NCBI GenBank assembly: GCA_000341795.1
Contig: AODO01000003.1
Location: 1 to 64,000, forward strand
From: Rhodococcus triatomae BKS 15-14
GTDB lineage: Bacteria > Actinomycetota > Actinomycetes > Mycobacteriales > Mycobacteriaceae
DNA length: 64,000 nucleotides
Reading direction: 5' to 3'
Shown: positions 28,579-32,674 of the stretch, piece by piece
How positions within the stretch are numbered: the first letter of the stretch is position 1
Layout of the letters: the number at the start of each line of letters is the position of its first letter
Made by a program: the position numbers and the translations under genes
Notes under the pieces: model-generated
Seen by the model: only the letters and a program-made list of their open reading frames with translations
The model's database searches: none
Told to the model about the DNA's origin: nothing

Positions 28579-28686
28579 TTCAGGGTCTCCCACGTCGACT
28601 GCAGACTTGCGACCAGCAGTTTAGTGGTGTTGCGCAGGTCACCCGGGGGCGGGGCGCTCGCGCACCTGGCCGCGCCGGAGTCCCCG

Positions 28687-28717
28687 TTGCGGCGTGGGCG
28701 ACCACAACCGTTAAGAT
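28687..28717 (+). promoter_or_regulatory. Probable promoter of the metY leader
   Basis: TTGCGG (28687-28692) and TAAGAT (28712-28717) are separated by 19 bp, and a start about 7 bp later (near 28724) would put the first nucleotides exactly at the 5' side of riboswitch helix P1. The spacing is long, so the -35 is less certain than the -10. Confidence 0.5.
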
Positions 28718-28725
28718 CGCAGCCA

Positions 28726-28838
28726 GGTCATGAGTGTCAGCATCAAGCCCCGGCTCGCTGGCCGGCAACCCTCCATCCGCGGTGGGGTGCCCCGGGTGAT
28801 GACCAGGTCCTTCGAGGACGCCGGAGGACAAGCGCGGG
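28726..28838 (+). ncRNA. SAM-IV riboswitch aptamer
   Basis: The sequence follows the actinomycete SAM-IV consensus as I remember it. P1 is GGTCAT (28726-28731) with ATGACC (28799-28804). Between them are the conserved core blocks AAGCCCCGGC, GCTGGCCGGCAACCCTCC and GGTGGGGTGCCCCGGGTG. The loop CCGCG (28777-28781) can pair with CGCGG (28833-28837) beyond P1, forming the external pseudoknot that distinguishes SAM-IV from SAM-I, with a small GTCC/GGAC hairpin (28807-28819) between. It should bind S-adenosylmethionine and lower expression of the downstream metY-metX operon. Confidence 0.92.
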
Positions 28839-28855
28839 TCCGTTGGGACGGACCC
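28836..28855 (+). promoter_or_regulatory. Hairpin overlapping the riboswitch pseudoknot strand
   Basis: GGGTCCG (28836-28842) pairs perfectly with CGGACCC (28849-28855) around a TTGGGA loop. Its first two bases are also the last bases of the CGCGG pseudoknot strand, so pseudoknot and full hairpin cannot both form completely. There is no T tract, so control is more likely translational than by intrinsic termination. The expression-platform role is inferred. Confidence 0.45.
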
Positions 28856-28889
28856 ACCAACAGGGACACGACCCACCGGAGGTTTAACC

Positions 28890-28910
28890 ATGTGTTGTTG
28901 TCGCAGATAG
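28890..28910 (+). CDS. Poly-cysteine leader peptide (MCCCRR) upstream of metY
   Basis: A seven-codon reading frame (ATG, three TGT, CGC, AGA, TAG) encodes MCCCRR. It has an excellent ribosome-binding site: GGAGG ends 7 bases before the ATG (28878-28882), far better than that of metY itself. Three consecutive Cys codons match the known class of cysteine-responsive attenuator peptides described in mycobacteria, in which slow decoding under low Cys-tRNA alters downstream expression. It lies between the SAM-IV aptamer and the metY start (65 bp later). Function is inferred, not shown. Confidence 0.8.
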   Translation: MCCCRR

Positions 28911-28974
28911 GCCCCATCAGCCCGGGCGCCCACGCGCCGCATCTTCGGACCACATCCTGGAGCAGAGCCGACTC

Positions 28975-30279
28975 ATGAGCGAGAACCCGATCGATCCGAC
29001 CGCGAACTGGACCTTCGAAACGAAGCAGATCCACGCGGGTCAGACATCCGACGCCACCACCAAGGCGCGCGCACTGCCGATCTACCAGACGACCTCGTAC
29101 ACCTTCGACAGCACCGACCATGCTGCCGCACTCTTCGGCCTCGCCGAGCCGGGCAACATCTACACGCGCATCATGAACCCCACCCAGGACGCGGTCGAGC
29201 AGCGCATCACCTCACTCGAGGGCGGCGTCGCGTCGCTGCTGCTCTCGTCCGGGCAGGCGGCGTCGACCTTCGCGATCCTGAACATCGCGGGTGCAGGCGA
29301 CCACGTCGTCTCGAGCCCCAGCCTGTACGGCGGCACCTACAACCTCTTCCACTACAGCCTTCCGAAGCTGGGTGTCGAGGTGACGTTCGTCGACGACCCG
29401 GACGACCTGGACCAGTGGCGGGCCGCGATCCGTCCGAACACGGTCGCGTTCTACGGCGAGTCGATCTCGAACCCGCGGAACGACATCCTCGACATCCCCG
29501 GCATCTCGTCCGTCGGGCACGAGGCCGGTATCCCCCTGATCGTCGACAACACCGTTGCGACCCCGTACCTGCTGCGCCCCCTGGAGCACGGCGCGGACAT
29601 CGTCGTGCACTCCGCGACCAAGTACCTCGGCGGGCACGGCACCGCGATCGCAGGCGTGATCGTCGACGGCGGCAGCTTCGACTGGACGCAGGGCAGGCAT
29701 CCCGGATTCACCACACCCGATCCCAGCTACCACGGCGCGGTGTTCGCGGACCTCGGCGCACCGGCGTACGCGCTGAAGGCCCGGGTGCAGCTGCTCCGCG
29801 ACCTCGGTTCCGCGGTGTCTCCGTTCAACGCGTTCCTGATCAGCCAGGGCATCGAGACGCTGAGCCTGCGGGTCGAGCGGCACGTGCAGAACGCCACCCG
29901 GGTCGCGGAGTTCCTCGAGGGCCACGACGGCGTCATCCGGGTCGCCTACGCCGGTCTCCCCAGTTCCCCGTGGTACGAGCGGGGCCGACAGCTGGCCCCG
30001 AGGGGCGCGGGAGCGATCGTCGCGTTCGAGCTGGCGGGAGGCGTGGACGCGGGCAAGAGGTTCGTCGACGCGCTCACGCTGCACAGTCACGTGGCCAACA
30101 TCGGCGATGTCCGGTCGCTCGTGATCCACCCCGCGTCGACCACGCACTCGCAGCTGACCCCGGAGGAGCAGCTCGCCGCCGGTGTCACGCCGGGCCTGGT
30201 GCGTCTCGCGGTCGGAATCGAGGGTATCGACGACATCCTGGCCGACCTCGAGGCCGGATTCGCGGCGGCGGCGTCTTGA
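28975..30279 (+). CDS. metY: O-acetylhomoserine sulfhydrylase
   Basis: A 434-residue PLP enzyme of the Cys/Met metabolism family that joins O-acetylhomoserine and sulfide to homocysteine. The N-terminal TKQIHAGQ, the [16 protein letters not shown] and SSGQAAS signatures, and the PLP lysine K216 in [11 protein letters not shown] are all present; the C-terminal [13 protein letters not shown] is typical of this branch. First gene of metY-metX-metX2, under the SAM-IV/Cys-leader region. Its own ribosome-binding site is weak (GGAG ~15 bases away), consistent with coupling to the leader peptide. Confidence 0.95.
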
Positions 30280-31460
30280 CAGTCGGTTCCGTTTCCAGCC
30301 CCCGTCCGGCGATGTCCCGAAAGTTCTTCCCGTCGCCGGACGGGCGGCTGTCCACCATCCCGATCGGCTCGCTGACGCTCGAGAACGGGGCGGTCCTGCC
30401 CGACGTCTCGCTGGCGGTTCAGTGCTGGGGCGAGCCGAACGAGGCGCGGGACAACGTGGTGCTCGTCGAGCACGCGCTGACCGGCGACTCGCACGTGACC
30501 GGTCCGGCCGGCGACGGCCATCCGTCCGCCGGCTGGTGGGACGGCATGGTCGGGCCGGGCGCGCCCATCGACACCGACGAGTGGTGCGTGCTGGCCACGA
30601 ACGTGCTCGGCGGATGCCAGGGCAGTACCGGTCCGTCCTCCCCCGCCCCGGACGGGGCGCCGTGGGGATCCAGGTTCCCCGCGATCTCGATCCGCGATCA
30701 GGTGACCGCCGAGGTGGCCCTCGCCGACGTGCTCGGCATCCGGCGGTTCGCCGCGGTGCTGGGCGGGTCGATGGGCGGGATGCGCACCCTCGAGTGGATC
30801 ATCGGGTTTCCCGAAAGGGTAACGGCCGCATTGGTTCTCGCATGCGGAGCCCGTGCGACCGCCGACCAGATCGGCACCCAGACCACCCAGATCGCCGCGA
30901 TCACGATCGACCCCGACTGGCAGGGCGGCGACTACCACGGCACCGGCCGCAGCCCCGACGCCGGACTCGGTGTCGCACGGCGGATCGCGCACCAGAGCTA
31001 CCGCACCGAACGCGAACTCGACGCCCGGTTCCACAACGACGGCCAGGAGGGCGAGGACCCGCGCGCCGGTGGCCGTTACGCGGTGGACAGCTACCTCCAG
31101 CATCAGGCGTCCAAGCTCGTGGCCCGATTCGATGCGGGCACGTACGTGCTGCTGACCGACGCGATGAACCGGCACGACGTCGGCAGCGGCCGCGGCGGCG
31201 TGGAGGCGGCGCTCGCCTCGTGCACGGTGCCGACGATCGTCGGCGGCGTGGACTCGGACCGCCTGTACCCGCTGTGGCAGCAGCGTGAGATCGCGACCCA
31301 CCTGGCAGGGTGCGAGGGACTCCGGGTGGTGAACTCGAAGGACGGTCACGACGGGTTCCTCACCGAGGAGACGTGGGTGACGGGGCTGCTCGGCGAGACG
31401 ATGGCGTTGGCGCGGACCGGGATCCGCGCCTCGAAAACCGGTCGTGAACAGGTTTCGTGA
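30276..31460 (+). CDS. metX: Homoserine O-acetyltransferase (first copy)
   Basis: A 394-residue alpha/beta-hydrolase-fold transferase making O-acetylhomoserine for MetY. The catalytic Ser is in [12 protein letters not shown] (residue 165 counted from TTG), the acid and His lie in [12 protein letters not shown] and [11 protein letters not shown], and the homoserine-binding [15 protein letters not shown] is intact. Start chosen as TTG at 30276, overlapping the metY stop; ATG at 30312 is an alternative, neither with a good ribosome-binding site. Its product feeds the upstream enzyme, and it is translationally coupled to both neighbours. Confidence 0.93.
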
Positions 31461-32674
31461 AACTCCTTTCCAACGCAGGCGCGGACATTAGCATCGGCAC
31501 GATGCAGTCGCTTGTGACCGAGACATTGACCACCGCCTGGACGATTCCGACCGACGGAACACTGACCTACATCGACATCGGTTCGCTCCCCCTCGAGAGC
31601 GGTGCGGTGCTCCCTGCGGTCACTGTCGCCGTCCAATGCTGGGGTGAGCCGACCCCCGCCCTCGACAACATCGTGCTGATCGAACACGCCCTCACCGGGG
31701 ACTCGCACGTGATCGGGCCCGCCGACGAGAACCACCCCACCCCCGGCTGGTGGCAAGGGATGGTCGGTCCGGGTGCCCCGGTCGACACGAACGAATGGTG
31801 CGTGCTCGTCACCAACGTGCTCGGCAGTTGCCGCGGCACGACCGGCCCCGGGTCGCCCGCACCCGACGGCCGCGCCTGGGGCTCACGCTTCCCCGCGATC
31901 TCCATTCGCGACCAGGTCGAGACCGAGCGCGCCCTCGCGGACAAGCTGGGTGTCGACAGGTTCGCGGCGATCGTCGGCGGCTCACTCGGCGGGATGCGTG
32001 CCCTCGAGTGGATCATCGGCCACCCGGACCGGGTCGAGACGGCGCTGCTGCTGGCGGTCAACGCCCGTGCCACCGCCGACCAGATCGGCGGCCACACAGC
32101 GCAGCTCGACGTCATCGCCGCGGACCCGAACTGGCACGGCGGCGACTACTACGACACCGGGACGACGCCGGACAACGGACTGAACATCGCCCGTCGGTTC
32201 GCGCACCTGACCTACCGCGGAGCCGCCGCCCTCGACGATCAGTTCGCGAATTCCGAGCAGCCCGGCGAGGACATCTGGAACGGCGGTCGGTACGCCGTGC
32301 ACAGTTACCTCGACTACTGCGCGAACAAGCTGGTGGCGACCTTCGACGCCGGTTCGTTCGTCGCGCTGACCCACAGCGCCAACAAGCACGACGTCGGCCG
32401 CGGCCGCGGCGGAATTCCCGCCGCCCTGGCCTCGACTCCGGTCCCGGTCGTCGTCGGCGCCATCGACTCCGACCGGATCATGCCGCTGCACCAGATCGTG
32501 GAGATGGCGGATCTGCTCCCCGGATGCGACGGTACCCGGATCGTGCACTCGGCCGCCGGACACGACGGCTTCCTCACCGAGTTCGAGTGGGTGACCGGCC
32601 TGATGGACGAGACGCTGGCGATGGCGCGGGCCGCTCGCGCCGCCCGGCAGGCAGCGCACGCGCCGGTCGGGTAG
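31457..32674 (+). CDS. Second MetX-like homoserine O-acyltransferase
   Basis: A MetX paralogue (405 residues from GTG 31457, or 390 from ATG 31502) directly coupled to metX by a 4-bp overlap. The Ser in [12 protein letters not shown], acid in [12 protein letters not shown] and His in [11 protein letters not shown] are kept. The substrate-site segment is [15 protein letters not shown] instead of [15 protein letters not shown], hinting at a changed acyl donor or amino-acid acceptor. Upstream of ATG 31502 a TAGCAT at 31489-31494 could be a -10 for a leaderless transcript. It could be a redundant acetyltransferase, or use serine or succinyl-CoA. Confidence 0.85.

Follow-up and report, generated by a model that had tools for sequence, protein, structure and literature searches.

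The metY leader of Rhodococcus triatomae contains, in series, a SAM-IV riboswitch aptamer and a short upstream open reading frame (uORF) with tandem cysteine codons. The presence of an aptamer and a poly-Cys uORF in one metY leader is an observation, confirmed here, and since the pair recurs in many relatives, the metY operon probably responds to two sulfur signals together. Our tentative reading, which may hold although we give it somewhat less than even confidence, is that of a natural two-input RNA device: a metabolite riboswitch would decide the translation of a tRNA-sensing leader ORF, combining the end product SAM and, for the sulfur donor, charged tRNA-Cys in series on one metY-metX transcript, with UGU codon choice tuning the sensor. 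Nocardiaceae and some mycobacteria would have conserved the device, related versions of which would occur in further actinobacterial families; its evolutionary dismantling would be seen in mycobacteria, metY ending on the former ribosome site of the uORF.

The explanation that we consider best, with doubt and belief in balance, is a leader with two sensors. RNA polymerase would start at the aptamer. The SAM-IV aptamer would then set the access of ribosomes to the strong Shine-Dalgarno (SD) sequence of the uORF, which would not be started when SAM is bound. The six-codon uORF would in turn act as a sensor of Cys-tRNA, being passed quickly when Cys-tRNA is plentiful and stalling the ribosome on the UGU codons right after AUG when it is scarce. 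Finally metY, whose own ribosome site is weak, would depend on the ribosome of the uORF; a stalled ribosome would hold the metY start region open, and high metY expression would require SAM and cysteine to be scarce at the same time (NOR logic).

Anatomy of the metY leader

Within the window, that is, the whole stretch of 64,000 nucleotides that was analysed, the Rfam SAM-IV model (RF00634) matched positions 28726–28840 of the forward strand over its full length (model positions 1–116 of 116) with 114.6 bits and an E-value of 1.9e-20, against a gathering score of 38. It is the sole Rfam match at gathering score within the window and was also recovered by the genome search, so the covariance model bears out the SAM-IV aptamer that the original prediction had placed in the metY leader. 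The P1 helix and the external pseudoknot are likewise found where they had been predicted: the strands GGTCAT (28726–28731) and ATGACC (28799–28804), as well as CCGCG (28777–28781) and CGCGG (28833–28837), read back as complementary. In the expression platform, a hairpin, H1 (GGGUCCGU/ACGGACCC, 28836–28855), is predicted by folding; it has two G in common with the pseudoknot, and both of its arms were found in 22 of 22 aligned leaders.

The uORF (28890–28910; ATG TGT TGT TGT CGC AGA TAG) encodes MCCCRR and is preceded by the SD sequence GGAGGT (28878–28883), located 6 nt upstream of its ATG; the near-ideal ribosome-binding site ascribed to this mini-ORF is indeed present. Immediately after the stop codon lies the C-rich sequence GCCCCA (28911–28916), by eye a candidate partner, with one C-A mismatch, of the metY SD region (28958–28963). 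The spacer also folds into a GC hairpin, GGCGC CCAC GCGCC (28925–28938), that is devoid of a U run. The metY ribosome site itself is poor, as had been claimed: its GGAG (28959–28962) is 12 nt from the ATG at 28975, and among comparable metY starts SD motifs of at least 5 nt are found at 12 of 67. The distance from the uORF stop to the metY start is 64 nt. The fold energy of the window leader as a whole is ordinary (z 0.35).

A −10 box, TAAGAT (28712–28717), ends 9 nt before the first base of the aptamer and 172 nt before the uORF. All 88 leaders in which the aptamer start could be located have a TANNNT motif no more than 24 nt upstream of it, at a nearly constant position among the 40 leaders printed. 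A consensus scan for E. coli-type promoters between positions 28600 and 29100 found none; of the promoter predicted upstream of the aptamer, it is thus the −10 box that stands. Transcription probably starts just before the aptamer, at a position that we infer.

The gene downstream of the leader, metY (28975–30279, forward strand as all features described here), is in the ORF list and encodes an O-acetylhomoserine/O-acetylserine sulfhydrylase, the protein scoring 857 bits against NF005872 (bifunctional O-acetylhomoserine/O-acetylserine sulfhydrylase; cut-off 703). The names of the family models (NF005872, TIGR01326) give cysteine as well as homocysteine as possible products. Two tandem metX paralogues follow, both above the cut-off of NF047917. 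The first, a homoserine O-acetyltransferase gene (30312–31460; its start, MSRKFF, is our choice), is probably in one operon with metY and overlaps by 4 nt with the second (31457–32674, from the ORF list). The other flank of the leader is formed by a divergent amino-acid-permease-like gene.

A SAM-IV riboswitch upstream of the M. avium O-acetylhomoserine sulfhydrylase gene has already been published, according to the available text of PMC3774663. Like the known SAM-IV riboswitches, the window aptamer is full-length, scores above the gathering threshold and lies 5' of a SAM-pathway gene; in addition, a uORF is found between aptamer and gene, a feature that the publications consulted do not mention for SAM-IV leaders. 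The same genome carries a second SAM-IV riboswitch (L002; G000:C1:178452-178568, minus strand), which precedes a cysteine-desulfurase-like gene (name read from MTAVLESTT...YANFDYAASAPAL) whose start site is flanked by CCCU and AGGG. No Cys uORF was found at the L002 SAM-IV leader.

Conservation of the Cys uORF in SAM-IV/metY leaders

In order to compare leaders across species, loci from named genomes, from the genus and the family and from extra sources were combined into a set of 99 distinct SAM-IV/metY leaders, in each of which the pseudoknot strand could be placed. A core motif served to locate their aptamers, and 86 of the 99 leaders are from loci derived from or checked with the covariance model; a second core motif in L085, devoid of the pseudoknot strand, was excluded. 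The metY loci sampled from named genomes are the best 80 of 434 relatives, and 49 of these 80 contain SAM-IV above gathering score. Further leaders were drawn from the best matches listed, comprising loci given by the search tool and 40 stretches of our own choice.

In 66 of the 99 leaders there is an SD-led uORF that is no longer than 40 codons and has at least two Cys in codons 2–12, against 0.28 expected from dinucleotide-shuffled spacers; the same was seen in 0 of 15 SAM-IV leaders of other genes. Since 13 of the 99 leaders came from searching for the uORF pattern itself, these were removed, leaving 54 of 86 with such a uORF; this tally, which corresponds to 67 uORFs overall, takes GGGGG as an SD and thereby adds one leader to the former count. 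The other 32 unselected leaders comprise 20 uORF-less ones with a short spacer (<75 nt), four with an SD-led uORF containing one Cys (MSRCR/MRSCR), three with at least two Cys but a weak or absent SD, two with the Cys-less relic MRSYR, and three long leaders in which nothing recognisable was found. The last three count against the two-sensor model.

The ribosome sites of uORF and gene differ markedly: an SD motif of at least 5 nt precedes 65 of the 67 uORFs versus 12 of the 67 metY starts behind them, and it is present at 15 of 20 metY starts in the short, uORF-less leaders. The median distance between uORF stop and metY start is 67 nt; five leaders of the fascians type have a uORF that overlaps metY by 4 nt (ATGA), and in L085 the overlap is 20 nt. 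Searched as a pattern (GGAGG-N3-10-ATG-TGY-TGY-TGY), the uORF start was found in 79 of 301 genomes of the GTDB family, versus 11 for the backwards pattern (counted from the table). Thirty of these sites were fetched: 19 lie directly 3' of a SAM-IV core, 16 of them with a metY motif at most 700 nt away, and 11 lie in unrelated sequence. The comparison across species that had been suggested for this leader thus finds that Nocardiaceae and some mycobacteria have retained both the Cys codons and the ribosome-binding site.

Several observations concern related loci. SAM-IV at gathering score is absent from 31 of the 80 metY loci taken from the best 80 of 434 relatives (including L018, L022, L026, L033, L058 and L061). 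Ten such loci were inspected, and several of them, by eye, are directly 3' of a gene ending ...CPVLDLT..; these several loci may be additional copies of metY that are regulated differently. L032, from a Rhodococcus MAG, has a uORF MRCCRR ∼120 nt before metY and no SAM-IV at gathering score. As a genome-wide motif, SD-led MCCC was rejected, as it gave one match in the genome of the window and, beyond the GTDB family, was present in 7 of 268 genomes versus 14 of 268 for the backwards control (counted from the table). Other poly-Cys leaders were sought in the window genome among TGY x4 matches; 0 of 30 fetched sites (of 58 matches) were a short start-led frame. The window also has an overlapping frame with a GTG/TTG start (MLLSQIG...) that extends as far as the start of metY; its end is not conserved, and it is therefore taken as chance.

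Peptide sequence and codon choice

The 67 uORFs encode 43 distinct peptides with little in common except Cys, examples being MCCCRR, MMCCCCRR, MRCCCQ, MCSCHE, MCRTCR, MSCCRR, MCHCR, MFSHRLCCSRR and, in Nocardia, MCCCRSQFAFR. Cys follows directly after the start or a doubled Met in 38 of the 43. Length and stop position are variable, and in the fascians type the frame continues toward or into metY. Arg is the last residue in 15 of the 43 distinct peptides. The sequence GATA around the uORF stop recurs in several clades, even across different reading frames, which hints at an RNA-level element.

In codons 2–7 of 55 distinct uORFs, TGT was used 124 times and TGC 18 times (124 of 142 TGT), versus 20 T and 16 C for other two-fold NNY codons of the same region (Fisher p 6e-5, a value that treats related, non-independent lineages as independent); in six ORFs of the window, 22 of 24 Cys codons are TGC and two TGT. 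The UGU bias suggests that selection has acted on the codons themselves, as would be the case if the uORF sensed Cys-tRNA by decoding, albeit it could also be an RNA-level constraint on UGUUGUUGU, and the single Cys codon of some leaders is thin for a tRNA sensor.

Two other readings of the uORF are affected by these data. In one, the nascent Cys peptide would sense a metal or redox signal instead of Cys-tRNA. A peptide of 5–7 residues, though, is too short to leave the exit tunnel of the ribosome, the spacing of Cys is not fixed (MCSCR, MCRTCR, MSCCRR, MSRCR), and it is the codon that is biased, not only the residue. Even with the adjacency of tandem Cys to Arg, and with CruR perceiving copper via a CXXC in its nascent chain (as described in the available text of PMC9426467), we regard such sensing as highly improbable. 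In the other reading, the SAM-IV-gated uORF SD would be a standby site feeding metY ∼85 nt downstream, and the Cys codons would matter little. The SD is better conserved than peptide length, and in the Sinorhizobium meliloti metA leader translation from a start codon depends on an SD that is 74 nt upstream of it, within a SAM-II riboswitch; the aptamer class and the phylum are other than those of the window, and the available text of that paper mentions no amino-acid-rich uORF (PMC9373788). A standby site is nevertheless very unlikely in our view, given that the Cys codons are kept while the remaining peptide varies and that other NNY codons show a weaker preference for T than the Cys codons do.

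Cys uORFs beyond the GTDB family

A class-level survey covered 28 loci and 40 further stretches. The SAM-IV core motif was found in 51 of the 68, and the other 17 were dropped. Fifteen of the 51 cores are metY leaders outside the GTDB family. With a looser criterion (at least one Cys and a 4-nt SD-like motif), seven of these 15 have an SD-like motif followed by a uORF that contains one or two Cys: MSCQRMPRR, MRCCPLTRSH, MTCRMPF, MTCRMRR, MRSCRMHTR, MCRCRMTGVAGA and MLCCRNTHR. One has a Cys-less uORF (MNHHRMRR, by eye) and seven have no uORF. Because an ORF with Cys also satisfies the looser criterion in 4 of 34 SAM-IV leaders of other genes (L300, L302, L309, L321), the single-Cys cases beyond the family deserve caution. 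As the uORFs outside the family carry one or two Cys, the poly-Cys form may be an elaboration of an older Cys-Arg uORF. Six uORFs outside the family (L230, L234, L226, L293, L295, L292) have in common CGAATG (Arg-Met) after the Cys position, MNHHRMRR with His in place of Cys being among them; these uORFs might read Cys and Met together.

Site of action of the riboswitch

In the short, uORF-less leaders, the metY SD is the predicted partner of a platform strand (CGGACC/CGGGCC; n = 16, mean z −2.05, with 12 of 16 below −1), the leaders without this pairing being L158, L159, L168 and L189. In mycobacterial leaders with a uORF or its relic, the platform strand pairs instead with the uORF SD in 6 of 12 (L062, L082, L083, L093, L141, L191; z −1.4 to −2.05), whereas pairing is absent or weak in L072, L075, L081, L088, L096 and L111 (z ∼−0.5 to +1.3). 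The two kinds of leader are closely related. At 38–43 of 47–48 positions, the platforms of L082, L093 and L191, which have a relic or a one-Cys uORF, agree with the platforms of five short leaders, and on a metY tree (80 rows, quick method, midpoint root, several weak forks) the short leaders of mycobacteria branch within groups of mycobacteria that carry the uORF. In mycobacteria, uORF and metY thus swap at one SD. The simplest history compatible with these sequences would be that loss of the uORF and spacer placed metY at the former uORF SD. Since the uORF-less metY occupies a retained, riboswitch-paired SD, the riboswitch probably gated the uORF in mycobacteria, though the pairing is predicted in 6 of 12 uORF leaders.

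The situation is different in the window's clade, where the pairing of platform and uORF SD is not better than in shuffled sequences (window z +1.20), a result that counts against riboswitch gating of the uORF there. Across 55 uORF leaders the mean z is +0.28. In Nocardia leaders the ∼17–20 nt from pseudoknot to uORF start leave no room for the platform hairpin. The original proposal that the riboswitch controls translation of the leader peptide is therefore sustained by half of the mycobacterial uORF leaders but not by the clade from which it was made, for which we infer gating by carrying over the mycobacterial case.

Possible coupling between the uORF and metY

The known leaders closest in appearance to the window uORF are mycobacterial. 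Canestrari 2020 (Mol Microbiol) reportedly found mycobacterial poly-Cys uORFs to be leaderless, with the M. smegmatis genes raised on cysteine limitation, and is said to have proposed attenuation at the level of translation. These poly-Cys leaders are cited in the available texts of PMC9031893, PMC13236596 and PMC9094748. Like them, the window uORF is short and conserved, has tandem Cys and lies 5' of a sulfur-metabolism gene; unlike them, it begins ∼165 nt into the presumed transcript, behind a strong SD and a riboswitch, and has its Cys codons directly after AUG. We did not file it as an attenuator of the mycobacterial type because it is not leaderless, having GGAGGT in front and an aptamer upstream. 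The likeness to such attenuators accordingly extends to the conserved tandem Cys before a sulfur gene but not to the leaderless start.

The sign of the coupling can be argued as follows. If the riboswitch gates the uORF only, SAM can regulate metY only if metY needs the uORF; therefore, a positive dependence of metY on uORF translation is argued. Given the rest of the model, the NOR direction appears somewhat more likely than not, being the most economical one because of the direction reported for poly-Cys leaders and of the cysteine-synthase name of the MetY family. In the mycobacterial type, a stall would disrupt a structure that hides the ribosome-binding site; for the leaders studied here, no mean change was predicted over 72 leaders, and a plausible helix exists in the fascians-type clade. 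The candidate mechanism by which a stalled ribosome frees the metY SD was rejected as a general one, as two start points and several ribosome positions gave no consistent effect in the 72 leaders. Mean predicted accessibility of the metY SD was 0.267 without a ribosome, 0.270 with one stalled at the first Cys and 0.343 with one at the stop, the last value being pushed up by those leaders in which the uORF extends into metY. When the calculation began at the uORF SD, the values were 0.254 (none), 0.268 (first Cys), 0.262 (last Cys) and 0.262 (stop, 65 leaders). A ribosome at the last Cys raised accessibility by more than 0.1 in 9 of 72 leaders and lowered it by more than 0.1 in 9 of 72; in the window, the values were 0.11 without a ribosome and 0.42, 0.10 and 0.05 at the first Cys, last Cys and stop. 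That accessibility is on average flat with a ribosome on the Cys codons counts against a stall opening metY.

In some clades, base pairing of the metY SD is nonetheless suggestive. In fascians-type leaders the SD pairs with the sequence that directly follows the Cys codons (eight leaders, z of the spacer fold −1.1 to −3.5), forming a helix, GAUAC..CCGU / ACGG..GUAUC, that is convincing in the fold. By eye, it is kept in most further members and broken in L220 and L222, and no clear compensatory change was seen among these members. Erythropolis/opacus-type leaders have a candidate pairing of ACCCCAG with CUGGAGU, and the window one of GCCCCA with UGGAGC, with G-C for A-U at the matching place (by eye). 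As general features, three candidates were rejected: base pairing between the post-Cys segment and the metY site (mean z −0.34, n = 72), base pairing between the metY SD and a wider upstream stretch (mean z +0.06, n = 72) and a generally structured spacer (mean fold z −0.69, 73 leaders, strongest in the fascians and erythropolis types). A post-Cys hairpin as well as the helix, which is predicted to close over the metY ribosome site, is found in the fascians-type leaders L030, L037, L042, L043, L046, L049-L051, L054, L055, L063, L085 and L205-L222. By eye, the hairpin stem differs between species and stays paired (GCUCGA/UCGAGC, CGGCUUUC/GAGAGCCG, CGGCCCUC/GAGGGCCG).

The main rival to NOR is a coupling of opposite sign, in which ribosomes that finish the uORF would re-start or be handed on at metY, so that cysteine shortage would lower metY. 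The gene would then be expressed only at low SAM in the presence of cysteine, an arrangement that would reserve sulfide for making cysteine. The strong uORF SD next to a weak metY SD, the ATGA overlap in the five fascians-type leaders and the location of the Cys codons at the start of the uORF, where a stall blocks further initiation, are all in its favour. Against it stand the GGAG that metY has of its own, the median distance of 67 nt, which is long for re-initiation, and the direction reported for M. smegmatis poly-Cys leaders, which are said to raise their genes on cysteine limitation. A precedent comes from the same bacterial family: in M. tuberculosis, B12 riboswitches lie in series with translated uORFs at metE and ppe2, and PPE2 depends on translation of its riboswitch-controlled uORF, mainly by termination-reinitiation (available text of PMC11260477). 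There, the ppe2 stop and start overlap, whereas the window metY is 64 nt from the uORF stop, and these uORFs are not described in that text as amino-acid sensors, unlike our reading of the window uORF. Overall, we regard the opposite sign as unlikely, and retain the NOR direction as the preferred one.

Control at the level of transcription was also considered. A classical trp-type attenuator was rejected, as a consensus scan of positions 28600–29100 of the window found no intrinsic terminator-like site after the leader ORF. In a Rho-dependent scheme, bound SAM or fast passage of the uORF would free a C-rich spacer for Rho, with termination before metY, and the uORF ribosome would shield it. 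The lack of a terminator in the window and the C-rich, G-poor spacer (44% C, 21% G; 63 leaders) are consistent with this. Published precedents are CruR, a uORF acting through Rho (available text of PMC9426467), and actinobacterial cys-operon leader peptides, which, in the available text of Seliverstov 2005 (PMC1262725), have Cys-codon runs and no obvious terminator, weak Rho sites being proposed for mycobacterial Cys leaders. The window shares with those leaders the Cys-codon run and the lack of a detected terminator; in them, the Cys runs are near the stop codon, before cys operons or cbs, and no riboswitch is mentioned in that text. The case for Rho is weak because the spacer composition is little different from that of SAM-IV-less metY loci (38% C, 23% G, n = 29); moreover, a ribosome on the uORF would be located 5' of the spacer and leave it uncovered. 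We therefore consider Rho-dependent control improbable.

Implications of the proposed two-sensor leader

Both riboswitches in tandem and attenuators based on leader peptides are familiar as separate devices. A leader peptide with Cys and Met (...CMCRRMCAF) precedes metNIQ in Streptomyces (metL), with no riboswitch mentioned in the available text (PMC8079986), and no report of a SAM-IV riboswitch combined with a Cys uORF was found in the open-access literature searched, including the available texts of PMC8632094, PMC9232105, PMC9971707 and PMC3890552. If the two-sensor reading is true, the output of the riboswitch would be the translation of an amino-acid-sensing uORF, a different wiring that joins two sensing principles, and annotating such leaders as plain SAM-IV would miss half of the control. 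Related leaders devoid of the uORF are natural controls with the same aptamer, and the actinobacterial balance of cysteine versus methionine/SAM would become directly testable on one operon.
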